IMG/VR virus record: IMGVR_UViG_3300009009_000047
Location: 1-23,432 of that record
Length of the DNA: 23,432 bases
Strand: one strand, 5' to 3'
From: a virus
Every line of letters begins with the position of its first letter. Position 1 is the stretch's first letter. Both the position numbers and the translations under genes were made by a program. This document shows positions 4,072-20,528 of this stretch, in pieces. Below the pieces are notes generated by a model that had not been told where the DNA came from, did no database searches, and saw only the letters and a list, made by a program, of their open reading frames with translations.

Positions 4072-4112
4072 TAAGATGAAAGTAGATGGTTCTGTTACAA
4101 AAGGAGGTGAAC

Positions 4113-5291
4113 ATGAAACATTTACTGCATTTTTTAGCCTTATTTTCATTCCTATTGTTAACATCATGCTCCACGGTGGACGTTCCCGAAAATAAACAAT
4201 TTATCCCTGTAATTCCTAAGGATGCCGTGCTTTCATCCAGCGGAAAAATGTACAGGACCGGCCTAAAAATTCCTGTTGGTTTCAAACCAGATCGAGTAAT
4301 TAAAGCAAATCTGGGTGAACCACTACCGGCAACGTTTGACTGGAGAACACAGGTTCAACTGTCACCAATTGAGAATCAGGCAAGTTGCGGATCTTGTTGG
4401 GCTTTTTCCACATCAGCAACGTTTCAGGACGTCAAAAGAATCTTCGGTGAGACTGAAGATTTATCAGAGCAGTATTTGCTGTCATGCGCAAATCCTTCTG
4501 AGTGGAGTTGCAACGGTGGTTTCTTTGCCCACGATGCCCACAAATCACCGAGAGGTGCGGTACTAGCAAGCGAGTACCCTTACACTGCCACGGACTCGGC
4601 TTGCAAGTCTGGATTAAACTACCGTTGGAAACTTACTTCATGGGCCTATCTTCCAGGTGGTGAAAACCCTTCAGTCGATGAAATTAAAGCAGCAATCTAT
4701 AAATATGGTCCCGTATCAATTGGCGTCGCAGCAGATTCAGCATTCAGCAACTATTCAGGTGGAATTTTTCAAGGATCAGGTTCAACTCAACTTAACCATG
4801 CCGTTAACTTGGTAGGCTGGGGAGATGGTTACTGGATCCTAAGAAACTCATGGGGTGCAGGATGGGGAGAAAATGGATTTATGCGCATCAAATGGGGGGC
4901 TAATGGTGTAGGCGCATGGGCAAATTTTATCGTGTACAACAAAGAACCAGAACCTCCAGGACCAGGACCGGATCCAGATCCTAATCCAGATCCCGAGCCT
5001 TGTGATCCGCAGCCGTATGCCGACACTGGCTATGGTGATTCGATCAAAGTTAGGGTAGGTGCAACAGTTTATCTCGGCACCAAGGCACGGCCAGGGCATT
5101 ACTACTATTGGACAGCAGAGCCAGCGTTTGATAACGGAGCCGTACCAAAAGAGGCAAAAATTAAGTACTCGCCACGAATAACAAAAAGACTTACAGTGCA
5201 TGCTGTAACGCAATGCGGCGAGGCTACCGATTCGGTAACAGTCAACGCCATGAAAAGTTACAATTTAGAAATGAAACCAGAAGTTGATTGA
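4113..5291 (+). CDS. Papain-family (C1A) cysteine protease lipoprotein
   Basis: The product (392 aa) starts with a type II signal peptide ending in lipobox LTSC (Cys19), so it should be a lipid-anchored envelope or outer-membrane protein. Residues about 70-278 form a papain-type peptidase: 'FDWR' at the mature-domain start, the oxyanion Gln89 and catalytic Cys95 in 'QASCGSCWAFS', 'SCNGG', catalytic His229 in 'LNHAVNLVGWG' and Asn245 in 'ILRNSWGAGWG'. All catalytic residues are present. A Pro/Asp linker (279-296) leads to a C-terminal beta-sandwich-like domain with paired cysteines, PKD/Ig-like in feel. No long inhibitory prodomain is present. AAAGGAGGTGAAC before the ATG at 4113 is the strongest ribosome site here; an upstream in-frame ATG (4086) would bury the signal peptide. 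A terminator follows. Confidence 0.88.
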   Translation: MKHLLHFLALFSFLLLTSCSTVDVPENKQFIPVIPKDAVLSSSGKMYRTGLKIPVGFKPDRVIKANLGEPLPATFDWRTQVQLSPIENQASCGSCWAFSTSATFQDVKRIFGETEDLSEQYLLSCANPSEWSCNGGFFAHDAHKSPRGAVLASEYPYTATDSACKSGLNYRWKLTSWAYLPGGENPSVDEIKAAIYKYGPVSIGVAADSAFSNYSGGIFQGSGSTQLNHAVNLVGWGDGYWILRNSWGAGWGENGFMRIKWGANGVGAWANFIVYNKEPEPPGPGPDPDPNPDPEPCDPQPYADTGYGDSIKVRVGATVYLGTKARPGHYYYWTAEPAFDNGAVPKEAKIKYSPRITKRLTVHAVTQCGEATDSVTVNAMKSYNLEMKPEVD

Positions 5292-5345: not shown

Positions 5346-6176
5346 ATGAGAGAAACACTACTCGCAATCATTGTTATGATCTGGCAGCCGATCCTCTATG
5401 CATCAATCCCGGAAAACCCATGGGACCAAGCGGACAACGGCACAACGTGGAACATATCCGAAAAAGAATTTCATGAGCGCATAGATCAGGTTTATGCTGT
5501 CTACAGTCCCATATTTAAAAACCTTGGCATCAATTTCTGGTTTGAGAGGCAATGGCAGTCCCACACCGTGAACATCTATGCCGACATTTTTGAAAACCAG
5601 TGGAATAAGAACTACAAGATTATTGTTCATGGTGGACTAGCGAGGCGCCCACAGTTAACAAAAGATGGCTTCAGTTTGGCTTTGTGCCACGAACTGGGCC
5701 ATCTGCTTGGAGGTTTTCCGCTAAAGGATTATACCAAATATAGTAGTGAAGGGCAGGCCGACTATTATGCAACTCATGTATGCGCAAAAAAGGTATTTGG
5801 TGAAATGGCAAAAAAAGCGCCAATTATCAACATGGGTGTCAAGGTACCGATATGCGATACAGGTTACGACACGAAACTTGAAACCGACGTTTGTTACCTG
5901 ACTGTGTTTGCTGCCAAGTCCCTGGCCGATACATTGAGCCAGGTGACCGGGGAATACCGCACGGCGGAGATCGATATTAAAGACAGCTATAAAGCTCCAT
6001 ACACGATCAAACAGCACACAGCGAGTCAATGTCGTCTCGACACGTACATTGCCGGGCTGTTGTGTCAAAAACCTTGGGATGATAAAGTAATTCCATATGA
6101 TAAAAAAAATGCATCATGTCTTAACAGACCGCAATGTTGGTACAATCTAGTACCTGGACAGGATGTCAAAAAATGA
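5346..6176 (+). CDS. Secreted HExxH zinc metalloprotease-like protein
   Basis: The product (276 aa) begins with a signal peptide (about residues 1-20, ending 'YAS'). The zincin motif is 'LALCHELGHLLGG' (His115, Glu116, His119), and a likely third ligand is Glu135 in 'SSEGQADYYAT', an EGQAD arrangement as in gluzincin-like families. Many cysteines in the second half suggest disulfides and an extracytoplasmic location. I recall similar 'CHELGH...EGQADY' exported proteins in Bdellovibrio-like bacteria, so the gene may have been acquired from the host. The ATG directly follows the T-run of the terminator hairpin, whose 3' arm supplies AGGAG. Translation is therefore probably low or conditional. 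Its end overlaps the nuclease start. Confidence 0.78.
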   Translation: MRETLLAIIVMIWQPILYASIPENPWDQADNGTTWNISEKEFHERIDQVYAVYSPIFKNLGINFWFERQWQSHTVNIYADIFENQWNKNYKIIVHGGLARRPQLTKDGFSLALCHELGHLLGGFPLKDYTKYSSEGQADYYATHVCAKKVFGEMAKKAPIINMGVKVPICDTGYDTKLETDVCYLTVFAAKSLADTLSQVTGEYRTAEIDIKDSYKAPYTIKQHTASQCRLDTYIAGLLCQKPWDDKVIPYDKKNASCLNRPQCWYNLVPGQDVKK

Positions 6177-8188: not shown

Positions 8189-8488
8189 ATGAAAAGGCTG
8201 GCATTATTAATTGCTATGATCCCTGGATTGGCTTGGGCAGAGATCCCGATCCAAAAGGTTCAACCTTTATTTATCAGTGTTCACATAACCACAACTCGTG
8301 TATTAAGAATTAACACAAATCAAATAAAGTGGTTCGAGGATTACTATCCTCCGGACGATCTTTATTATGGATCACATATTTGTCTAGTTGACAGCAATCA
8401 ACCGTATTCGGTCATCGAAAAGCCTGATGAGATAGAGCTTATGATGAGTGAAGGGTATGAGAAACCAAATCCTAAAGGGAAGAAATGA
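8189..8488 (+). CDS. Small exported protein, FlbD-like fold possible
   Basis: The product (99 aa) has a signal peptide with cleavage expected after 'LAWA' (residue 17), so it should be periplasmic. The rest has a strand-rich pattern ('RVLRINTNQIKWFE', 'HICLVD', 'YSVIEKPDEIELMM') similar to the short FlbD-like/phage 'INxxxI...V.ExxDEI' proteins, though those are cytoplasmic, so the match is weak. GAGGTG precedes the ATG, and the end overlaps the ParB-like start by 4 nt. Its coupling to a ParB and glycosyltransferase pair is odd for an exported protein. Confidence 0.6.
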   Translation: MKRLALLIAMIPGLAWAEIPIQKVQPLFISVHITTTRVLRINTNQIKWFEDYYPPDDLYYGSHICLVDSNQPYSVIEKPDEIELMMSEGYEKPNPKGKK

Positions 8489-9237
8489 ACGTTATAAAAG
8501 TGCCAATCAGTCAGCTTGTCACAGACCCCAACAATGCCAGGAAGCACGGCACAAAGAACCTATCAGCAATCAAGGGATCACTGGCCAAGTTCTCGCAGCA
8601 AAAACCGATTGTGATCGATGCCAAGAACGTGGTGATAGCAGGAAACGGAACCCTGGAGGCAGCAAAGCAACTCGGTTGGACACACATCAATGCTGTAGTT
8701 ACCGAGCTTGATGATCTTGGCAAAATGGCCTTTGCACTGGCAGATAACAAAACATCGGAACTGGCCGAGTGGGATGAATCCATGCTGATGGAACAACTCG
8801 ATTGGCTCGACAAGATGGATTTTGATATTGGTAGTATTGGATTTGACGAAATAGAACTTCCGAAAGATAGTTCCGAAGAAGAAAAAGATGATCTCTATAC
8901 CAAGAAAATCAAAGCACCAATCTATGAGATAACGGGAGAAAAGCCAAAGGTAGATGATTTATATGACGGATCAAAAACCAACCAGCTGATTGAACAGATA
9001 TCAAATGCTGATCTGCCTCCAGATATCACTAATTTTCTGAAACTTGCAGCACAAAGGCATACAGTTTTCAGTTATGAGAAAATAGCCGAGTACTACGCAC
9101 ACGCTCCAAAAGATATACAAGAGTTGATGGAAAACAGCGCTCTGGTTATTATCGATTTCAATAAAGCAATTGAAAACGGTTTCGTCACAATGGCAAAAGA
9201 GATAGCGGAGGCATATACAACAAATGAAGATGAGTAA
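8485..9237 (+). CDS. ParB-like nuclease-domain phage protein
   Basis: The N-terminal ~95 residues are a ParB/sulfiredoxin-fold domain: 'VPISQLVTDPNNARKHG', 'IKGSLAKFSQQKPIVID' and the nucleotide-binding-type loop 'VIAGNGTLEAAKQLGW', then 'ALADNKTSELAEWDE'. Phages often carry such domains beside DNA methylases, terminases and base-modification enzymes, where they are thought to help target or regulate action on DNA. The C-terminal part ('RHTVFSYEKIAEYYAHA', 'MENSALVIIDFNKAIENGFV') is a pattern I recognise in many phage ParB-like proteins next to terminase genes. It overlaps the glycosyltransferase start by 14 nt, which implies joint function. True chromosome-partition ParB would have a helix-turn-helix, which is absent. 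Confidence 0.82.
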   Translation: MNVIKVPISQLVTDPNNARKHGTKNLSAIKGSLAKFSQQKPIVIDAKNVVIAGNGTLEAAKQLGWTHINAVVTELDDLGKMAFALADNKTSELAEWDESMLMEQLDWLDKMDFDIGSIGFDEIELPKDSSEEEKDDLYTKKIKAPIYEITGEKPKVDDLYDGSKTNQLIEQISNADLPPDITNFLKLAAQRHTVFSYEKIAEYYAHAPKDIQELMENSALVIIDFNKAIENGFVTMAKEIAEAYTTNEDE

Positions 9238-10084
9238 TGATTTTGTTGCCTTTATAATATCTCACGGAAGACCAGATAACATAAAAACATATGCAACATT
9301 GAGACGTCTCGGATATACAGGTGACATAAGAATTGTAATAGATAACTTAGATAAAAGATCAAAAGAATATTATGATAAATATGGCAAAGAAGTAATTGAA
9401 TTTGATAAGGTTGAAATAGCAAAAACAACCGATCAAGGCGATAACTTCAATAACTTGAGAACAACAACACATGCAAGAAATGCAGTATTCAATATAGCTA
9501 AAGATTTAGGCTACAAATATTTTGTGGTTTTGGATGATGACTATGTAAAGTTTGATTATAGGTTTGATGATAAATATGATTTTAATTATAAAATGATAAA
9601 AAACTTAGATGATGTTTTTAAAGCAATTAAATCCTTTTTGATCTCAACCGATATACTATCAATTTCTCTGGCTCAAGGCGGGGATTTTATCGGAGGAGCA
9701 GGTGGATCGTTTGCACAGCAGCCAACACTCAAAAGAAAGTGCATGAACTCTTTTTTCTGTGCTACAGATCGACCATTCAAATTTATCTCAAGGCTCAATG
9801 AAGATGTGAATACATATCTCACATTAGGGAAAAAAGGCTTTTTATTTTTCACATCAAATCAAGTTATGTTAACTCAGGTTCAGACACAAACAAGTAGCGG
9901 TGGTATGAGCGATGCATATCTTGATTTTGGCACATATGTTAAAAGTTTTTATTCGGTCATATATCTTCCATCATGTGTGAAAGTTAAAATGATGCATACA
10001 TCTAATAAAAGGCTTCATCATGCTGTCAGTTGGAAAAATACAGTCCCATGCATTTTGAGAGAAGACATAAAAAAGAGGGCATAA
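9224..10084 (+). CDS. TAGT/GREB1-like glycosyltransferase
   Basis: The product (286 aa) matches the TET-associated glycosyltransferase pattern: an N-terminal 'FIISHGRPDNIKTYATLRRLGYTG', 'IRIVIDN', 'HARNAVFNIAKDLGYKYFVVLDDDY' with an acidic DDD metal/sugar-nucleotide site at 104-106, a glycine-rich 'GGDFIGGAGGSF' and 'RLNEDVNTYLTLG'. The family was predicted to add sugars to hydroxymethylated bases of phage DNA. No TET/JBP oxygenase or hydroxymethylase lies in this window, so the substrate is open; it could also be a protein. The DNA is more AT-rich than its neighbours, suggesting recent acquisition. It has no clear Shine-Dalgarno, so translation probably depends on coupling to the ParB-like gene. 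ATG at 9230 is an alternative start. Confidence 0.7.
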   Translation: MKMSNDFVAFIISHGRPDNIKTYATLRRLGYTGDIRIVIDNLDKRSKEYYDKYGKEVIEFDKVEIAKTTDQGDNFNNLRTTTHARNAVFNIAKDLGYKYFVVLDDDYVKFDYRFDDKYDFNYKMIKNLDDVFKAIKSFLISTDILSISLAQGGDFIGGAGGSFAQQPTLKRKCMNSFFCATDRPFKFISRLNEDVNTYLTLGKKGFLFFTSNQVMLTQVQTQTSSGGMSDAYLDFGTYVKSFYSVIYLPSCVKVKMMHTSNKRLHHAVSWKNTVPCILREDIKKRA

Positions 10085-10510
10085 ATGGCTAAGAAACCCG
10101 GACCACCCAAGGGCACAGGCGGCAGACCACCGAAACCTATCGACTGGGTAGAGGCTGAAAGACTGGCTTTGATGCAGTGTACACAGAAGGAAATAGCCAG
10201 CTGGTATCATGTTTCACACGACACTTTAGTTGAGAGATATGAGAAGGAATTTGGGGAAACTTTCTCGAACTGGTACGAAAAGCACAGCGCCAACGGAAAA
10301 AGTTCCCTACGGAGACGCATGTACAAAGCAGCAATGGACGGCAACGTGACGATGATGATCTGGCTCTCCAAACAGATGCTGGGAATGCGTGATAGAATAG
10401 ACGAGGTAACCGATCAAAAACCTGTTATCATCAAAAATAAAGATGGTTCAAGTATCACGTTGGGAACCACCAAAATAGACTTCAAAAAGGATGCTCAAAA
10501 TGACCAATAG
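10085..10510 (+). CDS. terS: Terminase small subunit
   Basis: The product (141 aa) has a basic Gly/Pro-rich start ('KKPGPPKGTGGRPPK'), a helix-turn-helix ('CTQKEIASWYHVSHDTLVERY') and 'MYKAAMDGNVTMMIWLSKQMLGMRD', a pattern characteristic of phage small terminases. It recognises phage DNA and loads the large subunit for packaging. GAGGG lies 5 nt before the ATG. The large subunit is not next in line: a structural gene, a tiny ORF and a NeuB-like gene intervene. Its stop overlaps the next start. Confidence 0.8.
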   Translation: MAKKPGPPKGTGGRPPKPIDWVEAERLALMQCTQKEIASWYHVSHDTLVERYEKEFGETFSNWYEKHSANGKSSLRRRMYKAAMDGNVTMMIWLSKQMLGMRDRIDEVTDQKPVIIKNKDGSSITLGTTKIDFKKDAQNDQ

Positions 10511-11759
10511 CAGCATTAATGACAGGATATATAATTCATTCGAGGAGACTACCCGAGGTGAGGATCTACAGTTCTCACAACGTGTAGCGTTTGGCGACAA
10601 CGCGTTGATAGACGCCTTTGGTCGAGTGAGAACATCATTACCAAGCGTGGTATTCGACAACTATGAAATCCAAGGCAAGAAAACTCTTGTCTGGAATGAA
10701 AAGATTGTTGGTGGCGCATCAATTGCTCATGTTGCCAACCAAGCCGCATGCCAGTTTGTTACAACCGCTGCAAACGGAGACAAGGCGACAAGATCGTCAA
10801 AAAAGCTATCCCTCTATACTCCAGGCACATCGATTCTAGTATTTATGACAGGAGTTATGGGAGTAGGTGCAACAGGTTCATCGCAGCGGATTGGTCTATT
10901 CAGTGCAATGGATGGTGTATTTTTTGAGCAAAAAGATAAATCCATGGGTATCGTAATTCGATCAAGCACAACTGGAAGTGCCAACAATAATAGGATCGAG
11001 CAGGATGATTGGAATGTTGATACATTTGATGGTAATGGTCCTACAGGAATAGATTTAGATTTTACTAAGACACAGATCTTTTTTATCGACTTGGAATGGC
11101 TTGGAGTAGGTCGAGTGCGATGCGGCTTTGTTCATGAGGGAAAACCATTGATTGCCCATGAATTCTATCACAACAACCGGCTGTCAACGGTCTACATGAA
11201 AACACCGATTCTACCGATCCAATACGAAGTCGAGAATACAGCAGCATCTACAGCACTGACCGACTTCAGACAAATATGTGCATCATTGATAGTTGAAGGT
11301 GAGGAAACCGTAAGCAAGATCCCTCGCTCTGTCAGCAATGGGGTAACAGCTAGAGCAACTACTACCACAACTGGAATACCGTTGATATCAATCAAGCTCC
11401 AGACAGGTGTTGTGGGTCAAGCAATGTTGAGACCGGTTAATGAATCTTTAATGTCGGTCGGCAACCGTGACCACGTTTTTGAAGTTCATTATGGCGGCAC
11501 ACTCGAATCAGCATCATGGGCAAATGCACCGGGAATAGGAATGGTAGATATAGCCGCGACACATATTACAGGTAGCACAAAGATTTCTACAATCTATACT
11601 GCCTCATCACTCAGAAGCTCTTTGGAGGACGTCTTCAAGAACCTACTATGGTTGGGAGGTGATCTTGACGGCAACGGTGAATCTTTGTCAATCGTAGCAA
11701 GATCGATCGGCGGTGGAGGTTCAGCACTTGCCGCTATCGACTACGAAGAATTTGCATAG
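10500..11759 (+). CDS. Putative virion structural protein (spike/fibre or head fibre)
   Basis: The product (419 aa) starts with a short helix, then 'DAFGRVRTSLPSVVFDN', a signature I recognise in large phage structural proteins near terminase genes. The rest is rich in Ser/Thr/Gly/Ala and beta strands, with no enzyme motif. The ATG at 10500 is preferred because AAAAGG is 8-9 nt upstream; the ATG at 10491 is too close to it. It overlaps the small terminase by 11 nt. A surface fibre, spike or decoration protein is likely. If the phage glycosylates its virion, this exposed Ser/Thr-rich protein would be a candidate target. Confidence 0.6.
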   Translation: MTNSSINDRIYNSFEETTRGEDLQFSQRVAFGDNALIDAFGRVRTSLPSVVFDNYEIQGKKTLVWNEKIVGGASIAHVANQAACQFVTTAANGDKATRSSKKLSLYTPGTSILVFMTGVMGVGATGSSQRIGLFSAMDGVFFEQKDKSMGIVIRSSTTGSANNNRIEQDDWNVDTFDGNGPTGIDLDFTKTQIFFIDLEWLGVGRVRCGFVHEGKPLIAHEFYHNNRLSTVYMKTPILPIQYEVENTAASTALTDFRQICASLIVEGEETVSKIPRSVSNGVTARATTTTTGIPLISIKLQTGVVGQAMLRPVNESLMSVGNRDHVFEVHYGGTLESASWANAPGIGMVDIAATHITGSTKISTIYTASSLRSSLEDVFKNLLWLGGDLDGNGESLSIVARSIGGGGSALAAIDYEEFA

Positions 11760-11772
11760 AAAGGAGGATGCT

Positions 11773-11823
11773 ATGGGATGTAAAGGCGGAAAACCAAAAA
11801 TGCCACCAAAGCCTAAGAAGTAG
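11773..11823 (+). CDS. 16-residue basic mini-protein MGCKGGKPKMPPKPKK
   Basis: A complete ORF encodes 16 residues: Met-Gly-Cys followed by a Gly/Lys/Pro tail with seven lysines. AAAGGAGG lies about 5 nt before the ATG, a near-consensus ribosome site that is unlikely by chance. It starts 13 nt after the stop of the structural gene. Very short Lys/Pro-rich ORFs with strong ribosome sites occur near head genes of other phages, in my recollection. It could bind DNA, membrane or capsid; function unknown. Confidence 0.55.
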   Translation: MGCKGGKPKMPPKPKK

Positions 11824-11922: not shown

Positions 11923-12669
11923 ATGCGCATAGTAGCAGACCTATCTCTCAATTTTCAAGGGCTAGATGATATTCTTGACACAATCAAGGCAGTTCAGTGC
12001 GACTACATTAAGCTGCAATGGTACAGTGAAAAGGATCTCTATGGTACCGGATCCGAGGAAACTAAGCTCAATCCGGAATGGCTACCACAAATTCAGCATG
12101 CTTGTCACGAATCTAACAAACGACTGCTTTGCACCGTATTCAATCCTGATAAAGTGCGCATAATTGATCCATTCGTGTTTCTCCACAAAGTAGCATCAAG
12201 CGAGATAACCGACAGGGAACTATTAAAGCAGATTGCTCTGTGCAGGAAACAGGTGATTGTATCAACAGGTGGGGCTACCAAGGATCAGCTGTTGACGGTG
12301 CGAGGTCTGCTCTATGGCCTACCCATTATATGGCTTGCCTGTGACGTGGAATATCCAGCCAAACGGCATAATATCCGAAAGATGCTACAACTCAAGAATT
12401 GGTTTCCAAACGATCAGGTTGGATACTCAGACCATAGCCTTGATATCGAGTCGTTTCCGATCATATGTGCGCATTACAACGCTGCTATTTACGAAAAGCA
12501 TGTCAAACCAACGTTGGATCACCCAAGTTATGAGAAACATGCACTGACTGTTGTTGAGTTCAACGAGATGGTTGATGCCATGGCTGGAAAGGCTCCCAAG
12601 TTTACTGCAAATCCACACCAAAGGGTGTTCAACAAGGATCTCAACAAGTGGGTGAGGCCTATTGTCTAG
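11923..12669 (+). CDS. neuB: NeuB-family nonulosonic acid synthase, short form
   Basis: The product (248 aa) follows NeuB/SpsE/LegI/PseI enzymes, which join phosphoenolpyruvate to a six-carbon N-acetyl sugar to make sialic, legionaminic or pseudaminic acid. Motifs appear in order: 'YIKLQWYSEKDLY' (K30, Q32), 'HKVASSEITDRELLK', 'VIVSTGGAT', 'LACDVEYPAK', 'VGYSDHS' (H171) and 'YEKHV' (H193); the two His match the metal ligands of NeuB. The usual first-strand 'AEIG' reads 'VADLS', placing Asp6 where the family has a catalytic Glu. The C-terminal SAF/antifreeze-like domain, which closes the active site in the dimer, is missing (typical length is about 340-350). There is no Shine-Dalgarno at normal spacing (AAAGGA is 16 nt away), so expression is probably low. 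It overlaps terL. Confidence 0.82.
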   Translation: MRIVADLSLNFQGLDDILDTIKAVQCDYIKLQWYSEKDLYGTGSEETKLNPEWLPQIQHACHESNKRLLCTVFNPDKVRIIDPFVFLHKVASSEITDRELLKQIALCRKQVIVSTGGATKDQLLTVRGLLYGLPIIWLACDVEYPAKRHNIRKMLQLKNWFPNDQVGYSDHSLDIESFPIICAHYNAAIYEKHVKPTLDHPSYEKHALTVVEFNEMVDAMAGKAPKFTANPHQRVFNKDLNKWVRPIV

Positions 12670-13999
12670 TCTAATATTTGAACCCCACAGCGATAAACAA
12701 AATGATGTGCTATATTCACAAAAAAGAACCACGATATGCGCATCTGGCATACAATACGGAAAAACTACGATCGGTGTTATGCGTCTTAAAATAGCGATGC
12801 ATGAGTTCACGCATCCGACTGACAACTTCATCGTGACATCACCAACGTATAAAATATTGTACCAGTCAACACTGCCTCCATTTCTACACTGGAATAAGGG
12901 AATCGGAAGATATGACAAAAAAAACGAATGTTTCAACATCAAAGGTGGTGGAAAGGTTTGGTTCAGAACCGGCACAGATCCAGACAGTGTAGTTGGTATC
13001 ACTAACGTCAGACATATTCTGTGTGATGAGGCTGGCTTGTATGGCCTTTATTTCTATGAAAATATTCAAGCAAGAAGTGCAATTAAGGAATGTCCAATTA
13101 CAATTGTAACATCACCGTACAGCCTCAATTGGTTGTATCGTGATTATATCCGCAAATATAAAATGGGTGACCAATACACCCTAGAAACCGTCCACCTATG
13201 TCAAGCCAGGAGTAACGAGAACCCTTACTTTCCTTTAGCCGAGTATGAGAACAAACGCAGGACCATGGAACCTCGTCGGTTCAATATGATGTTTGGAGGC
13301 AACTTTGATAAAGCTCAAGGATTGGTGTATTCGTGTTTTGACAGTTCTAAACATTGGATCGATCCTGTACGTCTTCCAGAAGGAACCAGATACTTGGCAG
13401 GCGTTGACTGGGGATATACTCACCCTTTTGTTATTGTTGTGCGTGCCATTACTCCTTTGGGTATGCATTATCAAGTTGCTGAATTTTATGCCACGCAGCT
13501 GATGATCGGTGACAAGATCGATGCTGCTCATAGGCTCAAGGCTCAATGGCCGATAGAGAAATTTATTGCTGATAGCGCCAATCCAGACGACATAGAAGAG
13601 TTTAACCGGGCAGGATTGAGATGCGTCCCGGCAAATAAAGACATCAAAAAAGGTATTGAGGCACATTGGGAGCTTATCAACTCTGGATTGTACCAAGTGT
13701 TTAAAGGCGACAATTTTCATACTATTGATGAGTACGAAATGTACCACTACCCTGAAGCTAAGGATTTGAAACCGGATCAGGATGAGTCCGAGAAATCAGA
13801 CTTGCCGGTTGATAAAGAAAACCATTGTGCAGATGCCAACCGATATATTACAATTGCTACCTTTACAACTAGCAAAAAGCCTAATAAAATAATATCATCA
13901 GAGAATTCAAATATTATCCCTTCGCGGGTATCGTCAGATTATGATCTTAAGCGCGATAAATTACTCAAGAAAAAGCGCTTTGATGGTCATGTTTTGTAA
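12662..13999 (+). CDS. terL: Terminase large subunit (ATPase/nuclease)
   Basis: The product (445 aa) is the packaging motor. It has a Walker A-like loop 'ASGIQYGKTT' (27-36), Walker B 'HILCDEAG' (118-125), coupling motif 'TIVTSPY' and a C-terminal RNase H-like nuclease with Asp249 ('AGVDWGYT'), Asp304 ('FIADSAN') and Asp391 ('HCADANRY'). The start is TTG at 12662, overlapping the NeuB-like gene by 8 nt, with GGTGAGG just upstream. The first ATG lies after Walker A, so an upstream non-ATG start is required. Length is normal. It should cut concatemers and pump DNA through the portal encoded downstream. Confidence 0.93.
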   Translation: MSSLIFEPHSDKQNDVLYSQKRTTICASGIQYGKTTIGVMRLKIAMHEFTHPTDNFIVTSPTYKILYQSTLPPFLHWNKGIGRYDKKNECFNIKGGGKVWFRTGTDPDSVVGITNVRHILCDEAGLYGLYFYENIQARSAIKECPITIVTSPYSLNWLYRDYIRKYKMGDQYTLETVHLCQARSNENPYFPLAEYENKRRTMEPRRFNMMFGGNFDKAQGLVYSCFDSSKHWIDPVRLPEGTRYLAGVDWGYTHPFVIVVRAITPLGMHYQVAEFYATQLMIGDKIDAAHRLKAQWPIEKFIADSANPDDIEEFNRAGLRCVPANKDIKKGIEAHWELINSGLYQVFKGDNFHTIDEYEMYHYPEAKDLKPDQDESEKSDLPVDKENHCADANRYITIATFTTSKKPNKIISSENSNIIPSRVSSDYDLKRDKLLKKKRFDGHVL

Positions 14000-14010
14000 G
14001 GTTTATACCC

Positions 14011-14385
14011 GTGCCGACATACGACTACAGATGCGCAGCATGTAACACTGATTTTGATATAGTTAAATCTATGTATAATATCGATATTGTAGAGTCATGC
14101 CCATCCTGCCAATCAGCGTGTGACAAATCGTGTCGTGTCATTACTAAAGGCAAAGAGTTCTATGGTGAGAAGCCAGATGAGCCGTTCTACTCGATTCCTC
14201 TTGGGAAGTGGGTGAAGGGCAAGAACGACATGAGACGCCAAGCAAAAGAACGTGGTCTGATCGAGGTTGGCAATGAAGATGTCAACAAACTAGTAGATAG
14301 AGCAGAGCGCGACAGAGAAAAGAAACGAAATGATGGTTGGCGGGAATTTACTAACCCGGCAGCTTATCAAATAAGGGGTGCATAG
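14011..14385 (+). CDS. FmdB-like zinc-ribbon phage protein
   Basis: The product (124 aa) begins 'MPTYDYRCAAC', the start of FmdB-type zinc ribbons, with a second knuckle 'CPSC' (C8, C11, C30, C33). The rest is charged and helical. Such proteins are common between terminase and portal genes of phages, but their role is not settled. GTG start, with only weak AAGG upstream. The stop TAG shares a base with the portal GTG start, so they are coupled. Confidence 0.75.
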   Translation: MPTYDYRCAACNTDFDIVKSMYNIDIVESCPSCQSACDKSCRVITKGKEFYGEKPDEPFYSIPLGKWVKGKNDMRRQAKERGLIEVGNEDVNKLVDRAERDREKKRNDGWREFTNPAAYQIRGA

Positions 14386-16217
14386 TGTTAGAAACTCTTT
14401 ACCCTTCCGATGCAACAGGTAGCCCTATTAGCGGTACAAACGGGGCTAATCCTGATATATCACCCGAAGAGCAGGCGCAGGTTAAAGCAATCATGCGCAA
14501 GTTCTACGAATACAAGAAGGTCAGGGATCAGGCAGCAAAGAATTGGATCTCGTTTTATAAACTGTTTCGAGGCCAGCAGTGGAATACCAAGCGTCCTAGT
14601 TGGAAGACATCTGAGATCATCAACCTAATCTGGCAGACTATCCAGTCTCAAGTTCCTCTCCAGACAGATGCACGTCCAAAATTCACATTCTTGGCAACAG
14701 AACCACAAGATGTACCGTTTGCTGAGATCTTAGATAAGATTTGTGATGCAGAGTGGGATAAATACAACTGGATGAACGTTGTCCAGGAGGTAATTCTTGA
14801 CGGTTATATCACCGGATCCGGTATCAGTTCGATGAACTATGATCCTTCGCTCATGTACGGCATGGGTGCACCGGTATATGTAAGTGAGGAACCTCTGTTC
14901 TGCTACCCGGATCCAGAGTGTAACGACATCAATGACGAGAAATCCGAGGGATTTTTTAAAGCATATCCGATGCCGACCGAAAGGCTTAAGCAGAAGTACC
15001 CAAAACGTGCTGGCCAGATCAAATCAGACATCACATCGGACAAGATGAAAAAAGATAAATACGATCTGCACAGGGCATACCTGACAGAAAACATGTCAAC
15101 ATCGTTGCAGATGCCAGAACTATCTTACGACACTGAAACACCAGGTGATTACACTACTCCCAAGACCATGGTGTTTGAGTGCTACCTTAAACCCAAGGAT
15201 GTCGAGGAATTTGCAGAGCAGAACGGCGAGGAAAAGATCTACACCGTCAAAAAGAAATATCCCAATGGTCGGTATGTTTGCATCGCCAACGGCATGATAC
15301 TTCATGATGGGGATCTACCGTATGAGGATGGGCTAATACCCTTCAGCAAATATTGCAATTATGTTGATCCAAGGCAGTTCTGGGGGATCAGCGAAGTTGA
15401 GCAGTTGGCATCCCCACAGATCATCATCAACAAGATCATGTCTTATACAATTGACACCCTGCTCTATACCTCAAATCCGATCTGGCTCGTCTCAAACGAT
15501 GCCGATGTTGATACAGATAACCTCTCGAATATTCCCGGTGCGGTGGTTGAACACTCACCAGGTGCAACGGTGCGCAGGGAAAACGGTCCACAACTCAATC
15601 CCGGTTTTATGCAAGTGATCGACAGGCTATTCGGTTGGTTCAGTGATCTTGCCGGTCAAGGCGACTTTAGCCAAGGCAAAGCCGAGGGTGGTGTTACCGC
15701 CGCAAGTGCAATCGAACAGCTGATCGCAGCTAGTCGCACACGGATCAGGCAGAGGATGAGAAACCTTGACTGTTATCTCAAGACAGCGGGACGTCAATGG
15801 CTCAACCGTGTTCTTGAACACTATACCGCTCCTCGCGTTTTCCGCATGACTAATAGCGATGGATCAGCATATTTCATGAAGTTTCACATTGACGATGTCG
15901 ATGTTGAGCAGGATGGAATGATGGTCAGAAAGAAACGCGCTACCGTCCATACCTATGATGAGAGTGGTGAAACTCAAGTCCAGCAACTCATGCTCTCGGG
16001 GGAACTTGACATCAAGGTGCAGGCTGGATCTGACCTACCCTTTGAAGCAGCAGACAAGGAGCGCAAAGCCTTGGCACTGTTTGATCGTCAGATTATTGAT
16101 GAAGAAGAAGTACTTTCCCAGTTACAATATCCCAATAAAGAAAAAATATTAATGAGACTAAACGAACGTAAACAACTTATGGCACAGCAACAAGCAGCTG
16201 CGCAGCAAGGAGCATAA
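14385..16217 (+). CDS. Portal protein, P22-like family
   Basis: The product (610 aa) resembles P22-type portals, the dodecameric ring for DNA entry and exit. Features are an N-terminal helix with 'NWISFYKLFRGQQWN', 'EIINLIWQTIQSQVPLQTDARPKFTFL', the 'DPRQFWGISEVEQLASPQIIINKIMSYTIDTL' core and a helical 'AASAIEQLIAASRTRIRQRMRNL' segment, then a Gln/Ala-rich tail. Length fits the family. GTG start with AAGGGG 5-6 nt upstream, overlapping the previous stop. P22-like portals support a podovirus assignment, together with gp4- and gp10-like genes downstream. Confidence 0.85.
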   Translation: MLETLYPSDATGSPISGTNGANPDISPEEQAQVKAIMRKFYEYKKVRDQAAKNWISFYKLFRGQQWNTKRPSWKTSEIINLIWQTIQSQVPLQTDARPKFTFLATEPQDVPFAEILDKICDAEWDKYNWMNVVQEVILDGYITGSGISSMNYDPSLMYGMGAPVYVSEEPLFCYPDPECNDINDEKSEGFFKAYPMPTERLKQKYPKRAGQIKSDITSDKMKKDKYDLHRAYLTENMSTSLQMPELSYDTETPGDYTTPKTMVFECYLKPKDVEEFAEQNGEEKIYTVKKKYPNGRYVCIANGMILHDGDLPYEDGLIPFSKYCNYVDPRQFWGISEVEQLASPQIIINKIMSYTIDTLLYTSNPIWLVSNDADVDTDNLSNIPGAVVEHSPGATVRRENGPQLNPGFMQVIDRLFGWFSDLAGQGDFSQGKAEGGVTAASAIEQLIAASRTRIRQRMRNLDCYLKTAGRQWLNRVLEHYTAPRVFRMTNSDGSAYFMKFHIDDVDVEQDGMMVRKKRATVHTYDESGETQVQQLMLSGELDIKVQAGSDLPFEAADKERKALALFDRQIIDEEEVLSQLQYPNKEKILMRLNERKQLMAQQQAAAQQGA

Positions 16218-16219
16218 TC

Positions 16220-16480
16220 GTGGCACAAGATATGGCAGGGCAAGAAGGCGGCGGAGTTTCCCCCGAAGAGATCGTGCAAAACGTGGCCGACACTATCAAC
16301 TCTCTTGCACAAGCAGCAGGTCAGCAGCGTCCAGATGTTGCACAGAAGTTGCAGCAAATTGGCCAGCAATTTATGCAGGTCATGAGCGAATTTGTAGGTG
16401 GAGCCGGTGGCGGTGGTGGACCACAGCCTGTTCCTGAACGTGGACAAGGTACCCCACAGGGGCCGCAAGGAGCTATGTAA
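16220..16480 (+). CDS. Small Gln/Gly-rich head-module protein
   Basis: The product (86 aa) has a central amphipathic helix ('EEIVQNVADTINSLAQAAGQ', then 'VAQKLQQIGQQFMQVMSEFV') and a disordered Gly/Pro/Gln tail. GTG start with AAGGAG 8 nt upstream, 2 nt after the portal stop. It is located between portal and scaffold. It could be an assembly chaperone or scaffold helper; no family is recognised. Confidence 0.6.
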   Translation: MAQDMAGQEGGGVSPEEIVQNVADTINSLAQAAGQQRPDVAQKLQQIGQQFMQVMSEFVGGAGGGGGPQPVPERGQGTPQGPQGAM

Positions 16481-16483
16481 TAT

Positions 16484-17377
16484 ATGGTAGATTTCAATAT
16501 TGATCAAATAGCGGGTGAGATTGATAACGGTTCTTTCGGTGGTGGGGATCCAGCACCGACAGGACAAGCACCAATTCAACAGTCGTCGTTTGATCCCAAT
16601 TTAGTTATACCGTACAAGGCAAATGGCAAGGAATTGCAAGAACCGCTTAGTACGGTTATTCAACGTGCATCGATGGGTTACAACTACGCTCAACTTGTCC
16701 AGCAGCACAAAGCAGAACAAGCAGCGTTAGAGGCTCAAAAGGCACAAATACAGGAACAAGCGCAAAAATGGCAACAGTACGACGAATTTGCAAATTCAAA
16801 TCCCGAATGGGCAGAATATGTAAGATCGCAATGGGAGAGTCGTTTCAATTTTGGCCAGCAAAACCAAAATCAAGGGATGAATTCTTTTGGAGGCCAACAA
16901 GCGCAGCAGCATCAAGCAGGAATACCTCCGGAGTTATCCAGCAAGCTGCAAGAGATGGAAAGTTTCATTGGTCAATATCGTCAAGAACAGCAAGCAAGAA
17001 TGCAAGCTGAGCAAGATGCGGAACTGGCGTCAGAAATATCGGCAATACAAAATCAATACCCCGATATCGATTTGAAAGCCACCGATTTTATGACCGGTGA
17101 AAATGTCGAGCAGCAAGTATTACGTCATGCACAGGCTCATGGAATAAGCAACTTTAGGGCTGCCTTCCGCGACTTCATGTTCGATAAATTGCAGGCTCGA
17201 GGACAGACACAAGCAAAAGAGACTGTTGCGCGACAAATGCAGCAGCAACATAAAAATGGGATCCTTGGGCAGAGTAGTAGCCCAATGCTCCAGACAGAAC
17301 AAGGCAATGTCAACGTGAGAGGCCAGTCCTATCACTCGTTAATGGACATGGCCGCAAAGGAACTTGGTTTAACATAA
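16484..17377 (+). CDS. Scaffolding protein
   Basis: The product (297 aa) has the expected character of a scaffold: acidic, Gln/Ala-rich, strongly helical ('YAQLVQQHKAEQAALEAQKAQIQEQAQKW' region as a coiled coil) with disordered joints and no cysteine. It lies directly before the capsid gene, the usual scaffold place. ATG at 16484 with AAGGAG about 11 nt upstream. It would direct procapsid assembly and then exit or be degraded. The call depends on position and composition. Confidence 0.75.
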   Translation: MVDFNIDQIAGEIDNGSFGGGDPAPTGQAPIQQSSFDPNLVIPYKANGKELQEPLSTVIQRASMGYNYAQLVQQHKAEQAALEAQKAQIQEQAQKWQQYDEFANSNPEWAEYVRSQWESRFNFGQQNQNQGMNSFGGQQAQQHQAGIPPELSSKLQEMESFIGQYRQEQQARMQAEQDAELASEISAIQNQYPDIDLKATDFMTGENVEQQVLRHAQAHGISNFRAAFRDFMFDKLQARGQTQAKETVARQMQQQHKNGILGQSSSPMLQTEQGNVNVRGQSYHSLMDMAAKELGLT

Positions 17378-17401
17378 TAAATACTCAAAAGGAGAGTTAA
17401 A

Positions 17402-18325
17402 ATGGCGGTTTCAGTAGATCAGCTAACAGCGATCACCCAGAGATATATTGCACCCAAAATTTATGACAACATCTTCGATTCAAATCCACTTCTCAAGAGA
17501 ATGCTTGCCTCCGGTCAGTATAAATCCGTAAGTGGTGGTACCTCTATCGATTTACCTCTGAACTACGCCCAAACGACAGCCAATGGTTGGTATTCCGGTG
17601 CAGATTCACTTGATACATCTGAGAATGAGCAGCTCACAGTAGCCCGATATGATTGGAAATCCTTGTTTGCAGGGATCACAATCACTGAAGAAGACGAGTT
17701 GAAAAACGGTGGATCCGCTGGTGTTCTAAAACTTCTGGCCTCCAAGGCACAAATTGCTGAAAAGACAATAAAAGATGCTCTTGGTACTGGTCTTTACTCG
17801 GACGGCACAACAGCGAAATCGATCATCGGTTTGCGCGATATTATAGCTGTGGACCAAACTGTCGGTGGCATTGCGCAGAGTACAAATAGCTGGTGGCAAG
17901 GTATCGTTGACTCGACAAGTACCACCTTGACGATTGCAGCAATGAACACTGTGTTCGAGAATGCCTCGATTGACAGCGAGAAACCTACCGTCGCAGTTGG
18001 TACCAGAACCAACTACACACGTTATTACAACTTGCTTCAGCCACAGCAAAGATTCACAGACAGCGAGACAGCAAAAGGCGGCTTTGTAAATTTAATGTTT
18101 AACTCTGTGCCTTTTATAAGTGACTCACACGTGCCTTCCCAGCATTTATTTTTCTTAAACGAAAAACACCTGTGGCTGTGCTACCACCCTGAGCGCAATT
18201 TCAGCACAGAGAGCTTTCAGAAGCCGCTAAATGCGCAAGTCAAAGTGAGCAGGATCTTGTGGATGGGTGCTTTCGGCTCGAGCAACAACCGTCTTCATGG
18301 GAAAATGTCCGGGCTAACCGCTTAA
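17402..18325 (+). CDS. Major capsid protein (HK97-fold-like)
   Basis: The product (307 aa) looks like a major capsid protein of the type found after scaffolds in podoviruses and some siphoviruses: 'APKIYDNIFDSNPLLKRML', 'GGTSIDLPLNYAQTT', 'YDWKSLFAGITITEEDELKNGG' and a C-terminal 'NAQVKVSRILWMGAFGSSNNRLHGKM'. AAAAGGAGAG precedes the ATG, and an almost identical site (AAAGGAGAGCTAAAATGG) precedes the next gene; both suggest very high expression. A hairpin overlapping its stop may reduce downstream transcription. No protease gene is nearby, so no pro-domain cleavage is expected. Confidence 0.85.
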   Translation: MAVSVDQLTAITQRYIAPKIYDNIFDSNPLLKRMLASGQYKSVSGGTSIDLPLNYAQTTANGWYSGADSLDTSENEQLTVARYDWKSLFAGITITEEDELKNGGSAGVLKLLASKAQIAEKTIKDALGTGLYSDGTTAKSIIGLRDIIAVDQTVGGIAQSTNSWWQGIVDSTSTTLTIAAMNTVFENASIDSEKPTVAVGTRTNYTRYYNLLQPQQRFTDSETAKGGFVNLMFNSVPFISDSHVPSQHLFFLNEKHLWLCYHPERNFSTESFQKPLNAQVKVSRILWMGAFGSSNNRLHGKMSGLTA

Positions 18326-18337
18326 TTGCGGTTGGTT
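18312..18337 (+). terminator. Weak terminator or attenuator after capsid gene
   Basis: AACCGC (18316-18321) pairs with GCGGTT (18328-18333) around TTAATT; wobble pairs extend the stem outward. It overlaps the capsid TAA. The following sequence is T-rich (AAGTTTGTTTTGTGTTTTG) but interrupted, so partial termination is likely, leaving capsid mRNA in excess over distal genes. Confidence 0.5.
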
Positions 18338-18386
18338 CCTAAGTTTGTTTTGTGTTTTGACATTTAATTTTTAAAGGAGAGCTAAA

Positions 18387-18851
18387 ATGGCTTTTTATAG
18401 TGATACCCCAGTTATCTTTGGCGGACTTTCCGGCGTTACTGCAACACCTGGTACTAAGGATCCTGAACTTGGCACTCGTGTAAATTACGCTGGAAACGAG
18501 TACCTTTATGTTTATAATGCAGCAACAACCGATGTACCCATTGGCTATGCTGTAACACCGTTGGCTGGAACAACTAACTATAGTTGCACGATCTCGACAA
18601 CCGCTCAGATCGATGTACCCATGGGGGTAGTTAAGAATGCAACTCTTAGCGCATCGTGCTATGGTTGGGTCCAAACTAGAGGTTACTGCAAAATCCACGT
18701 CAGTGCAGCTGTTGCAACTGGTACCCCTATGCAACTCGGTGCCAATGGACTTTGGATTTCAGGAGTAACAGGTCCATATTTTGCAAAACTAATGTCTGTC
18801 GCATCGGCAGCAACAACCGTAAGCTCTTTGGCTTACATTTCTTGTCAATAG
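18387..18851 (+). CDS. Putative capsid decoration/stabilisation protein
   Basis: The product (154 aa) is small, strand-rich and very rich in Ala/Thr/Val/Ser/Gly, with no charge clusters. Residues such as 'YLYVYNAATTDVPIGYAVTP' and 'GTPMQLGANGLWISG' are typical of head decoration proteins. It lies directly after the capsid gene with the same strong ribosome site. High Thr/Ser content would make it a plausible substrate of the transferase encoded 13 nt downstream. Assignment is by position and composition. Confidence 0.65.
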   Translation: MAFYSDTPVIFGGLSGVTATPGTKDPELGTRVNYAGNEYLYVYNAATTDVPIGYAVTPLAGTTNYSCTISTTAQIDVPMGVVKNATLSASCYGWVQTRGYCKIHVSAAVATGTPMQLGANGLWISGVTGPYFAKLMSVASAATTVSSLAYISCQ

Positions 18852-18864
18852 AAAGGGTTTTTGA

Positions 18865-19896
18865 GTGATAAAGACAGCAAATATTCAGTTAGAGCTCCAG
18901 CCATATATCCAGCATCCACCGCAGAGTTTGCAGCAGATGTACGGTTCTGCATGCTCGTCGGATGGTGCTACGATACAGACGTGGCGGCCAAAATGGATAT
19001 CTAATATCACTCAAAACTCACGAGACTATGGACCGTTTGCATCAAAGGGGCTAGGCCTCCTACACCAGTCATGGCTTGGTGGAACCTGCATCATCGCAGG
19101 ATCCGGACCGAGCCTTGCCCTAAATATCGGGAAATTGAAAGATCGACCGAAGCACATGAAACTCATCTCATGCCTACACAATTTTCATGCGATGGAAGAC
19201 AATTGTGCCGAGGTTGATTACTATGTGACACTCGATGCAGGTCCAATTACTGTTCACGAAGTTTCCGAAGGCGGATCAAAAACGCCAGACGAATACTGGA
19301 ATCTGACAGCATCAAGAACACTCATTGCTTTCATAGGGACTGAACCGGAGTTATTGAAAAAATGGCAAGGCACAGTGCTATTTTACAATGCACCGGTACC
19401 TGATGAGTCCTATATGAAAGAGGTCGCGGCAATCGATCCATTTCACCAGTACGTTAGTAATGGTGGCAATGTTTTGGGAGCCTCGATGTACATAGCAAAG
19501 GCGTGGCTTGGTGCTGTCAGTCTAGTATTTATTGGTGCTGATTTCGCTTTTAGTAACCGAGACAAAGTAAAGTTTCATTACTGGGATAGCCAGTATGATG
19601 CCTCGATCGGACAGACTATTCGTACAGTAGATATCTACGGAAACTCTGTAAAAACATGGCCTTCTTATCACAATTTCAAATTGTGGTTTGATTATGTTTC
19701 ACAAGTCTGCCCTGGTATTTACATCAATGCGAGTGAAGGAGGAACGTTCGGAGCATATCGAGAGGGCAATATCATGACGGTATTGCAGATGGATCTCGAA
19801 AGTGTTTTTAACATGCACCAAATGAGTGATAAACTAAAATATCGCGTCGATGAGCCGACAGCCGAGCTCGCCGGCAAAGATGTTATACTTTTCTAA
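18865..19896 (+). CDS. Maf/DUF115-like putative nonulosonate glycosyltransferase
   Basis: The product (343 aa) matches the MAF_flag10/DUF115 domain of motility-associated (Maf) factors, which transfer pseudaminic or legionaminic acid onto flagellin, and of MptE-like pterin enzymes with the same Rossmann-type fold. Motifs are 'CIIAGSGPSL' (75-84), 'DYYVTLDAG' (118-126), 'GNVLGASMYIA' (201-211), 'VFIGADFAFS' (221-230), 'IYGN' and 'YINASEGG' (286-293). GTG start with AAAGGG about 9 nt upstream. It is the only enzyme in the capsid block, sandwiched between decoration-like proteins. With the NeuB-like gene about 6 kb upstream it suggests virion glycosylation. An MptE-like pterin kinase is the main alternative and makes less sense in this context. 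Confidence 0.75.
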   Translation: MIKTANIQLELQPYIQHPPQSLQQMYGSACSSDGATIQTWRPKWISNITQNSRDYGPFASKGLGLLHQSWLGGTCIIAGSGPSLALNIGKLKDRPKHMKLISCLHNFHAMEDNCAEVDYYVTLDAGPITVHEVSEGGSKTPDEYWNLTASRTLIAFIGTEPELLKKWQGTVLFYNAPVPDESYMKEVAAIDPFHQYVSNGGNVLGASMYIAKAWLGAVSLVFIGADFAFSNRDKVKFHYWDSQYDASIGQTIRTVDIYGNSVKTWPSYHNFKLWFDYVSQVCPGIYINASEGGTFGAYREGNIMTVLQMDLESVFNMHQMSDKLKYRVDEPTAELAGKDVILF

Positions 19897-19908: not shown

Positions 19909-20178
19909 GTGGCTTACACTGTAACAGTTCTCAATAGTACAGTTCACGGCAATGAAAGAGTGATCCGTTACAACATCCTTGCCGATGCGACAACACAAAC
20001 CATTGCAACTGGTTTGCAAAATATCACAGATCTTCGTATTACCAACAAGAGTGCGACATCTGGCATGGGCAAGTTTAAAGCCAATGTAAACGCAACAGGA
20101 TCGGCAGCAGCTGGTTCCTTTGCAATGACAAGCATTGTCAGTGGTGACGAGTATTATGTCACAGTTTACGGTGTGTAA
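19909..20178 (+). CDS. Small beta-rich virion protein
   Basis: The product (89 aa) is strand-rich and Thr/Ala/Asn/Ser-rich ('VTVLNSTVHGNERVIRYNILADATTQTIATG'), with no enzyme motif. GTG start preceded by AAGGAGAG, as strong as at the capsid gene. Position between the Maf-like gene and other structural genes suggests a minor head or decoration protein, possibly an acceptor of the sugar. No family recognised. Confidence 0.6.
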   Translation: MAYTVTVLNSTVHGNERVIRYNILADATTQTIATGLQNITDLRITNKSATSGMGKFKANVNATGSAAAGSFAMTSIVSGDEYYVTVYGV

Positions 20179-20180
20179 AC

Positions 20181-20528
20181 ATGTCGACCATATCACCTGT
20201 AAAGGTGTTCTCAAAATCGCTGGCATCAGCCACAACTGCCGTTACATTTAACATTGGTGGTGGATATAAAGCCTACCAAGTTAAAATTCCAAGCATGGCA
20301 AGTGGTGGTGATGTGCGTTTTGCTGTTTCGGATGATGAAGGGACGACATACCGCACCTTGTATCATGCTCCCACAGTAGCAACGGCAGCGCCAACAGTGG
20401 TAAATATTCCTTCAAGTGTTTCTAACGCGATAGTCGGGGTTCCACCGCTCGGTCAATACTTCCAGATTTATTTGACTTCAGCGACAACCGCAGCGTCGTA
20501 TATTTTCAGCGTAATAGGCATAGCATAA
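20181..20528 (+). CDS. Small beta-rich virion protein
   Basis: The product (115 aa) resembles Ig-like or jelly-roll accessory domains: 'VTFNIGGGYKAYQVKIPSM', 'VRFAVSDDEGTTYRTLY' and 'PPLGQYFQIYLTSATTAASYIFSVIG' are alternating strands. It begins 2 nt after the previous stop with no strong ribosome site, so it is probably coupled. Likely a decoration or minor head protein. Confidence 0.6.
   Translation: MSTISPVKVFSKSLASATTAVTFNIGGGYKAYQVKIPSMASGGDVRFAVSDDEGTTYRTLYHAPTVATAAPTVVNIPSSVSNAIVGVPPLGQYFQIYLTSATTAASYIFSVIGIA

Follow-up and report, generated by a model that had tools for sequence, protein, structure and literature searches.

Nonulosonic acid synthesis genes and a Maf-type transferase in a widespread lineage of uncultured tailed phages that may glycosylate their own particles

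Organization of the late operon

The window analysed here, that is, the whole 23,432-nucleotide stretch of IMG/VR virus record IMGVR_UViG_3300009009_000047 (positions 1 to 23,432), was a 23.4 kb fragment of a tailed-phage genome, the 3' end of which fell within a tail gene; the genome of the phage is roughly 36-40 kb. Two genes, one for a NeuB/PseI-type synthase of nonulosonic acids (NulOs; 248 amino acids) and one for a Maf-like protein (343 amino acids, GTG start), were followed up as parts of a possible system for glycosylation of the phage's own particles. The coordinates and strand of both open reading frames (ORFs; Table 1) agreed with those given in an earlier note on this DNA, and its placing of the two genes on the same strand in one packaging/head operon was confirmed. 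The late block ran in a single direction (+) and comprised, in order, genes for the terminase small subunit (TerS), a virion structural protein, NeuB, the terminase large subunit (TerL), a zinc-ribbon-like protein, the portal (P22-like in profile searches of the window proteins), the scaffold, the major capsid protein (MCP), a small head protein and Maf, followed by head-completion and tail genes. NeuB was preceded by a gap of 163 bases and overlapped the start of TerL by 8 bases at its 3' end, and scans for promoters and terminators returned nothing above chance.

The synthase and the Maf-like protein

Profile searches placed the first protein in PF03102 (8e-29, 101 bits against a cut-off of 22.1, residues 38-220), the sole family above its curated cut-off, and the NCBIfam PseI and NeuB models were also matched, with scores under their equivalog cut-offs. 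Structure models were produced by AlphaFold2 from family alignments and compared by Foldseek; for the NeuB model (pLDDT 93), the best matches were SpsE (1vli), PseI (8h2c) and NeuB (2wqp) at about 1e-15 to 1e-14, with DAHP and KDO8P synthases trailing at 6e-10 and weaker. Judged by profile and predicted fold, the gene thus encodes a synthase of the NeuB/PseI type, as had been proposed earlier, with a predicted activity dependent on phosphoenolpyruvate (PEP). The active-site residues Gln55, Lys129, Ser213, His215 and Glu234 of the Neisseria meningitidis enzyme, NmNeuB (PMC6795526), correspond to Q32, K89, S169, H171 and E191 in the window protein, all of which were invariant in an alignment of 27 phage NeuBs (22-85% identity to the window NeuB), while Glu25 was replaced by Asp6 and Asn184 was not kept in the window clade.

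The window NeuB consisted of a TIM barrel and a C-terminal stub, without most of the SAF (antifreeze-like) domain, a feature absent from the earlier description. The window clade as a whole has lost most of this domain; the stub ended in KWVRP, conserved as KWVRP or RWVRP within the clade. In meningococcal NeuB the SAF domain contributes the key Arg314 (PMC6795526); an arginine stood at the place aligned (by eye) to Arg314 in 26 of the 27 phage NeuBs, including other shortened forms (GFFR, GYYR), and the arginine of the stub may do the job of Arg314 in the short NeuBs. One relative (G017) had a NeuB that matched TIGR03569 over its full length (2-328 of 329). In another (G006; L032:2-1549), the upstream structural protein and NeuB occupied one reading frame from which the C-terminal part of the structural protein was gone, representing either a real fusion or a deletion.

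The second protein reached a single Pfam family, PF01973 (MptE-like, formerly MAF_flag10; 8e-17, 61.9 bits against a cut-off of 34.6). The best solved match of its model (pLDDT 92) was the Magnetospirillum Maf glycosyltransferase 5mu5 (E = 2.5e-9), followed by Methanocaldococcus MptE/HPPK 8sd5 (5e-4) and human sialyltransferase ST8SiaIII (6e-4), and a G-x-GPSL motif was invariant at residues 79-84. The Maf/DUF115-like designation in the earlier note was therefore upheld by both profile and predicted structure.

A different function, as an MptE-like pterin pyrophosphokinase or in DNA modification together with a TET-associated glycosyltransferase (TAGT), with NeuB an incidental neighbour, was considered very improbable. 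PF01973 is named for MptE, 8sd5 was the second solved match, and the window has a TAGT gene (PF20691, 2e-33) next to one for a ParB-like protein; against this, Maf 5mu5 was by far the better structural match, the TAGT occurred in only one of the 21 mapped records, and Maf travels with NeuB and with PseB-like, cytidylyltransferase, aminotransferase and PseH-like genes. The ParB-like and TAGT pair (8485-10084, TAGT at 9224-10084; phrog_842 in the 1e-70 range) suggests, by homology, hypermodified DNA, and different genes occupied that place in the other mapped records. A role of the NulO genes themselves in DNA modification was rejected on the same count, the NulO genes being core.

The remainder of the pathway in related phages

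The nearest relative of the window, G001, was 94% identical to it in Maf and 85% in NeuB. In G001 and most other relatives a cassette lay 3' of the spike genes and encoded a small protein, a PseB-like dehydratase, an SpsF/PseF-like cytidylyltransferase, a class-III aminotransferase and a PseH-like acetyltransferase. A short Gfo/Idh/MocA protein was usual between the dehydratase and the cytidylyltransferase (16/20 contigs, G001 not among them), and in G037 and G041 the dehydratase gene was located upstream of NeuB instead of in the cassette. The top models for the PseB-like dehydratase and the PseH-like GNAT protein were TIGR03589 (2e-45 or better; PDB 2gn4, 7e-31) and TIGR03585 (1e-16 to 1e-22), respectively, in both cases under the equivalog cut-off. 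By these matches, the set of PseB-, PseH- and PseI-type and PseF-type (CTP_transf_3) enzymes, characteristic of activated pseudaminic-type sugars carrying cytidine monophosphate (CMP), is present in the relatives, and the close relationship to G001 indicates that the window's own genome probably carries the cassette. The small protein that heads the cassette in most relatives (L030:9759-10130, L033:2510-2803, L036:13328-13579), G033 included, is possibly membrane-anchored.

The earlier note had regarded the rest of the pathway as missing, which was correct for the 23.4 kb fragment but not for the lineage, where the cassette 3' of the tail-spike genes is conserved. Because the relatives carry the rest of the pathway beyond the part covered by the fragment, the dependence on host precursors or activated sugar is likely to be much smaller than was proposed.

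The cassette usually lies 3' of spike and S74-like chaperone genes, and the chaperone-bearing spike family is rich in serine and threonine (23.5%), as could be expected if the NulO pathway were real and its main target were the tail spike or fibre and not the head. This target was nevertheless considered improbable, as every mapped genome has Maf directly 3' of the same gene for a small head protein, and the spike genes vary whereas Maf does not.

Co-occurrence, conservation and evolution

Scans of viral contigs yielded one close NeuB and ten Maf relatives, and an alignment-based Maf scan yielded 130, of which 80 were kept. Co-occurrence was scored in 20 Maf-positive contigs of at least 33.9 kb, and gene maps were made for 21 records. 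The pairing of the two genes on which the earlier note had built was found across related phages, with NeuB present in 18 of the 20 contigs and the late-operon places kept. The PF02719 dehydratase was likewise present in 18/20, CTP_transf_3 in 18/20 by Pfam (plus G001 by BLAST), the PseH-like GNAT protein in 19/20 and the class-III aminotransferase in 20/20 (weak in G033), and all six genes occurred together in 17/20 (summed over family searches). G007 lacked NeuB, with only a short gap at its place, and G039 lacked the dehydratase. G033 kept Maf without NeuB, dehydratase, cytidylyltransferase or GNAT, its aminotransferase being shortened and divergent (L128:9140-10090), and its pathway has apparently decayed, judging by gene content; since the contigs are metagenomic, a gene missing from one of them is not a proven absence. 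In the reverse direction, among 43 further viral records positive for the aminotransferase, NeuB was found in 40 and PF01973 in 20.

In the gene maps, NeuB adjoined or sat near TerL in the relatives. The structural genes, Maf, NeuB, the cytidylyltransferase and the aminotransferase were common to nearly all mapped genomes, the early genes to few, and portal and MCP were conserved to about the same degree as Maf, NeuB and the larger part of the cassette. Between the window and G001, dN/dS (the ratio of nonsynonymous to synonymous substitution rates) was 0.057 for NeuB and 0.065 for Maf (MCP, 0.047), indicating purifying selection. In a tree with 26 NeuBs from phages and 36 from bacteria the two groups were split by one branch with 100/100 support, and recent capture of NeuB from hosts was rejected on this basis, within a limited bacterial sample. 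No Maf relative was found in 84,980 prokaryote species (one genome each), hence no host could be assigned via prophages. Among 50,697 deposited phage records, Maf gave no match with three queries, and NeuB was found in one record with the window protein as query, in none with L119 and in three with Aeromonas PseI. With these queries, deposited phages thus almost never carry NeuB (at most 3/50,697) and none matched Maf, while in the lineage described here the system and the portal are conserved to about the same degree.

The same data bear on the view that the NulO and Maf genes serve to modify the surface of the host (its flagellin, pilin or a surface polysaccharide), with superinfection exclusion or avoidance of progeny trapping on debris as the benefit. 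Flagellin is the substrate of known Mafs (PMC11339370), the conversion of pseudaminic acid in the Acinetobacter capsule by prophage-encoded enzymes shows phages altering host sugars (PMC12053666), and the cassette adjoins host-recognition (spike) genes. This view was judged unlikely, given that every mapped relative has NeuB and Maf inside the late operon for packaging and head, that surface changes made late would have little time to act, and that no prophage relative, and so no sign of lasting lysogenic conversion, was found in one genome for each of the 84,980 species.

The scan with the aminotransferase also revealed NulO genes in other phages. In a second lineage, of contigs of about 45-52 kb (L314:7658-14366; also L310-L320, L324 and L329) with distantly related portal and MCP genes, genes for NeuB, a PseB-like protein, an aldo/keto reductase, a class-III aminotransferase, a GNAT protein and a cytidylyltransferase lay between MCP and the tail genes. 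That a second lineage also has its NulO genes among structural ones supports a particle-related role. PF01973 was not found in the L314-type lineage; a 439-amino-acid protein with no Pfam match (L314:12493-13812) is its candidate transferase. A further group of contigs, from 43 to 131 kb in length and in several cases longer than 110 kb (L321:8965-14349; also L322, L326, L328, L330 and L333-L335), carried full-length NeuB, PseB-like, aminotransferase, cytidylyltransferase-like and MocA genes, and methyltransferases; the cluster of the phages on contigs of 114-131 kb (L321) was more bacterial-like.

That large marine phages carry similar clusters without PF01973, and that NeuB was present in 32 of 60 sampled Pseudomonadota genomes, would suit a role as auxiliary metabolic genes, which would supply or reshape the NulO metabolism of the host and have no phage acceptor dedicated to them. 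This was considered extremely improbable for the lineage of the window, in which a dedicated transferase is more constant than any other gene of the set and is kept even in the absence of NeuB (G007 and G033).

Neighbouring genes and candidate acceptors

The features of the window that bear on the proposed system are collected in Table 1. The head proteins flanking Maf contained 18-22% serine plus threonine (S+T), against about 11% in the enzymes, which agrees with the bracketing of Maf by Ser/Thr-rich capsid and decoration genes pointed out in the earlier note. Structural proteins rich in these residues are common among phages, and this richness is therefore weak evidence, compatible with acceptor function but not specific to it.

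Table 1. Coordinates of the synthase, the Maf-like protein, candidate acceptors and context genes in the window
Feature	Position	Strand	Evidence
NeuB/PseI-type nonulosonic acid synthase, short form	11923..12669	+	PF03102, fold, residues, dN/dS
Maf/MptE-like protein, proposed CMP-nonulosonate:protein O-glycosyltransferase	18865..19896	+	PF01973, fold, position in relatives
Small Ser/Thr-rich head protein, candidate acceptor	18387..18851	+	Directly 5' of Maf in 21/21 mapped records; S+T average 20%
Major capsid protein, candidate acceptor	17402..18325	+	phrog_9953 major head protein, 1e-57
Two small Ser/Thr-rich late proteins, candidate acceptors	19909-20178, 20181-20528	+	3' of Maf, kept beside Maf in relatives; S+T 21-22%
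Terminase large subunit (context)	12662..13999	+	phrog_2, 3e-37
Virion structural protein 5' of NeuB (context, possible acceptor)	10491..11759	+	phrog_1645, 4e-81

Between the structural protein and NeuB lay a tiny ORF (11773-11823; MGCKGGKPKMPPKPKK) with a strong Shine-Dalgarno site, and a similar peptide (MGCDKKKPMPKPKMPKK) was encoded at the matching position in G007. Reading frames of TerL far above 445 amino acids were present in several contigs (L031:8870-11155, from G001; L037:13073-15349, from G010; L023:672-3062; L024:527-3838); the insert in G001 TerL reads as intein-like, with a homing-endonuclease region, and putative TerL inteins recur in the lineage. Further upstream in the window, a gene for a papain-like protein of lipoprotein type (4086-5291) was followed by one for a likely zinc metallopeptidase (5346-6176), both recognised from motifs by eye; the two genes were kept in close relatives and are unusual in a phage of this size.

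Proposed mechanism and points against it

A NulO pathway in the lineage is well supported by homology, and the gene for the putative glycosyltransferase was linked to structural genes in all mapped records. From these results we consider it probable that the phage synthesises a nonulosonic acid in CMP-activated form, which Maf O-links to proteins of the phage's own particle, the NulO system being a core trait of the lineage. By homology, the PseB-like dehydratase, the class-III aminotransferase and the PseH-like acetyltransferase would build an amino sugar, with which the NeuB/PseI-type synthase would condense PEP, and the cytidylyltransferase would produce the CMP-sugar. The fold and gene company of the Maf-like protein suggest that it would then move the NulO from CMP-NulO onto Ser/Thr hydroxyls. 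That the acceptor is a virion protein is indicated by the late-operon position and its conservation; most likely acceptors would be the capsid and/or the small proteins rich in Ser/Thr encoded on either side of Maf, which would receive the sugar while the particle is assembled or earlier, much as flagellin is modified by Maf ahead of its export. The gain for the phage could be an altered particle surface, through charge, stability, adsorption or shielding, which is speculation. In its broader form, towards which the evidence leans a little less strongly, the proposal is that a widespread lineage of uncultured tailed phages coats its own particles by long-inherited core NulO synthesis, CMP-activation and Maf-type O-glycosylation, possibly along a variant route using the class-III aminotransferase and the short Gfo/Idh/MocA protein.

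Several observations weigh against this proposal. The lineage is uncultured, and glycosylation of its particles is predicted from genes. As the cassette lies near spike genes, the sugar could be meant for the spike or for some structure of the host. The PseB, PseH and PseI models were matched below their equivalog cut-offs, and the exact sugar is therefore not fixed. A DegT-type PseC (PF01041) was found in none of the 20 phage contigs, compared with its presence in the bacterial genomes examined alongside, and PseG was not recognised in the gene maps, with no dedicated PseG profile search made; the route to the sugar consequently has gaps or needs unknown or host enzymes. The PF01973 family also holds pterin kinases (MptE). 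The N-terminal flagellar Maf domain PF20157 (Maf_flag10_N) was found in Aeromonas Maf and was not present in the window protein, which is for this reason Maf-like and not a flagellar Maf. Finally, the two near-full contigs G007 and G033 hold Maf without NeuB; known Mafs accept several CMP-NulO donors (PMC11339370), and the transferases of these two phages could therefore use host sugar.

If the proposal is true, there are phages that produce a sialic-acid-like coat of their own, with a bearing on how stable their particles are, how they adsorb and how they are recognised. These phages would also provide an O-glycosyltransferase of the Maf type that is compact and has its candidate natural acceptors encoded beside it. 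With this gene set, the old question of why phage particles carry glycans would become open to direct tests.

Comparison with known systems

No paper on a phage NulO/Maf/capsid system was found in the openly licensed PMC literature, and absence there is not proof. The closest bacterial relatives of the phage aminotransferase lie within pse-type gene clusters. In Aeromonas rivipollensis (L159) the order was PseB, DegT-type PseC, aldo/keto reductase, SpsF-like protein, class-III aminotransferase, PseG-like protein, PseH and PseI, with Maf nearby (sequence and a published map were the basis for naming PseC, the reductase and PseG). This arrangement is shown by Aeromonas flagellin-glycosylation islands, and in group I subgroups IA and IB the class-III aminotransferase directly follows pseF (PMC7874193). 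As Aeromonas has both enzymes together, the class-III aminotransferase may do something other than the step of PseC. Lacking DegT PseC and a recognised PseG, the cassette of the phages resembles an Aeromonas-type cluster in shortened form.

Like the systems of Aeromonas group I, Campylobacter and Clostridium botulinum for Maf-dependent O-glycosylation of flagellin with pseudaminic or legionaminic acids, the phage set brings together a PseB-like protein, an SpsF/PseF-like protein followed by a class-III aminotransferase, PseH, PseI/NeuB and Maf. Unlike the flagellin islands, it is found in lytic-type genomes, is divided over two late loci and includes the extra short Gfo/Idh/MocA protein, while DegT PseC, a recognised PseG, PF20157 in Maf and a flagellin acceptor were not seen in it. 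The legionaminic acid (sps) pathway of the Bacillus subtilis spore crust (PMC7439481) likewise combines an SpsE-type NeuB (1vli being the best match here) and an SpsF-type cytidylyltransferase to provide NulO for a protein coat surface, but the coat is that of a bacterial spore and the transferase is of another kind.

Among phages, 'MptE-like' proteins of uncultured phages in BFVD (for example A0A0F7L3H2) share their fold with the Maf-like protein (E = 1.7e-12) at an identity of only 13-16%, and no function or NulO link was described for them in the sources examined. The epaA/epaB genes of Acinetobacter baumannii prophage (PMC12053666) likewise encode phage enzymes acting on pseudaminic acid, but these alter host capsule sugar and involve neither a biosynthesis set nor particle modification. 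Virion glycosylation of capsid and tail tube has been shown experimentally in mycobacteriophages (Freeman et al. 2023, as cited in PMC12619734 and PMC11256854). The glycosyltransferases are phage-encoded there as well; the system proposed here, in which particle modification is deduced from genes, differs in its Maf-type transferase and in the phage genes for NulO synthesis and CMP-activation. Virion glycosylation in mycobacteriophages and Maf/NulO glycosylation of flagellin are separately known, and what appears new here, within the openly licensed literature covered, is their proposed combination in a phage.

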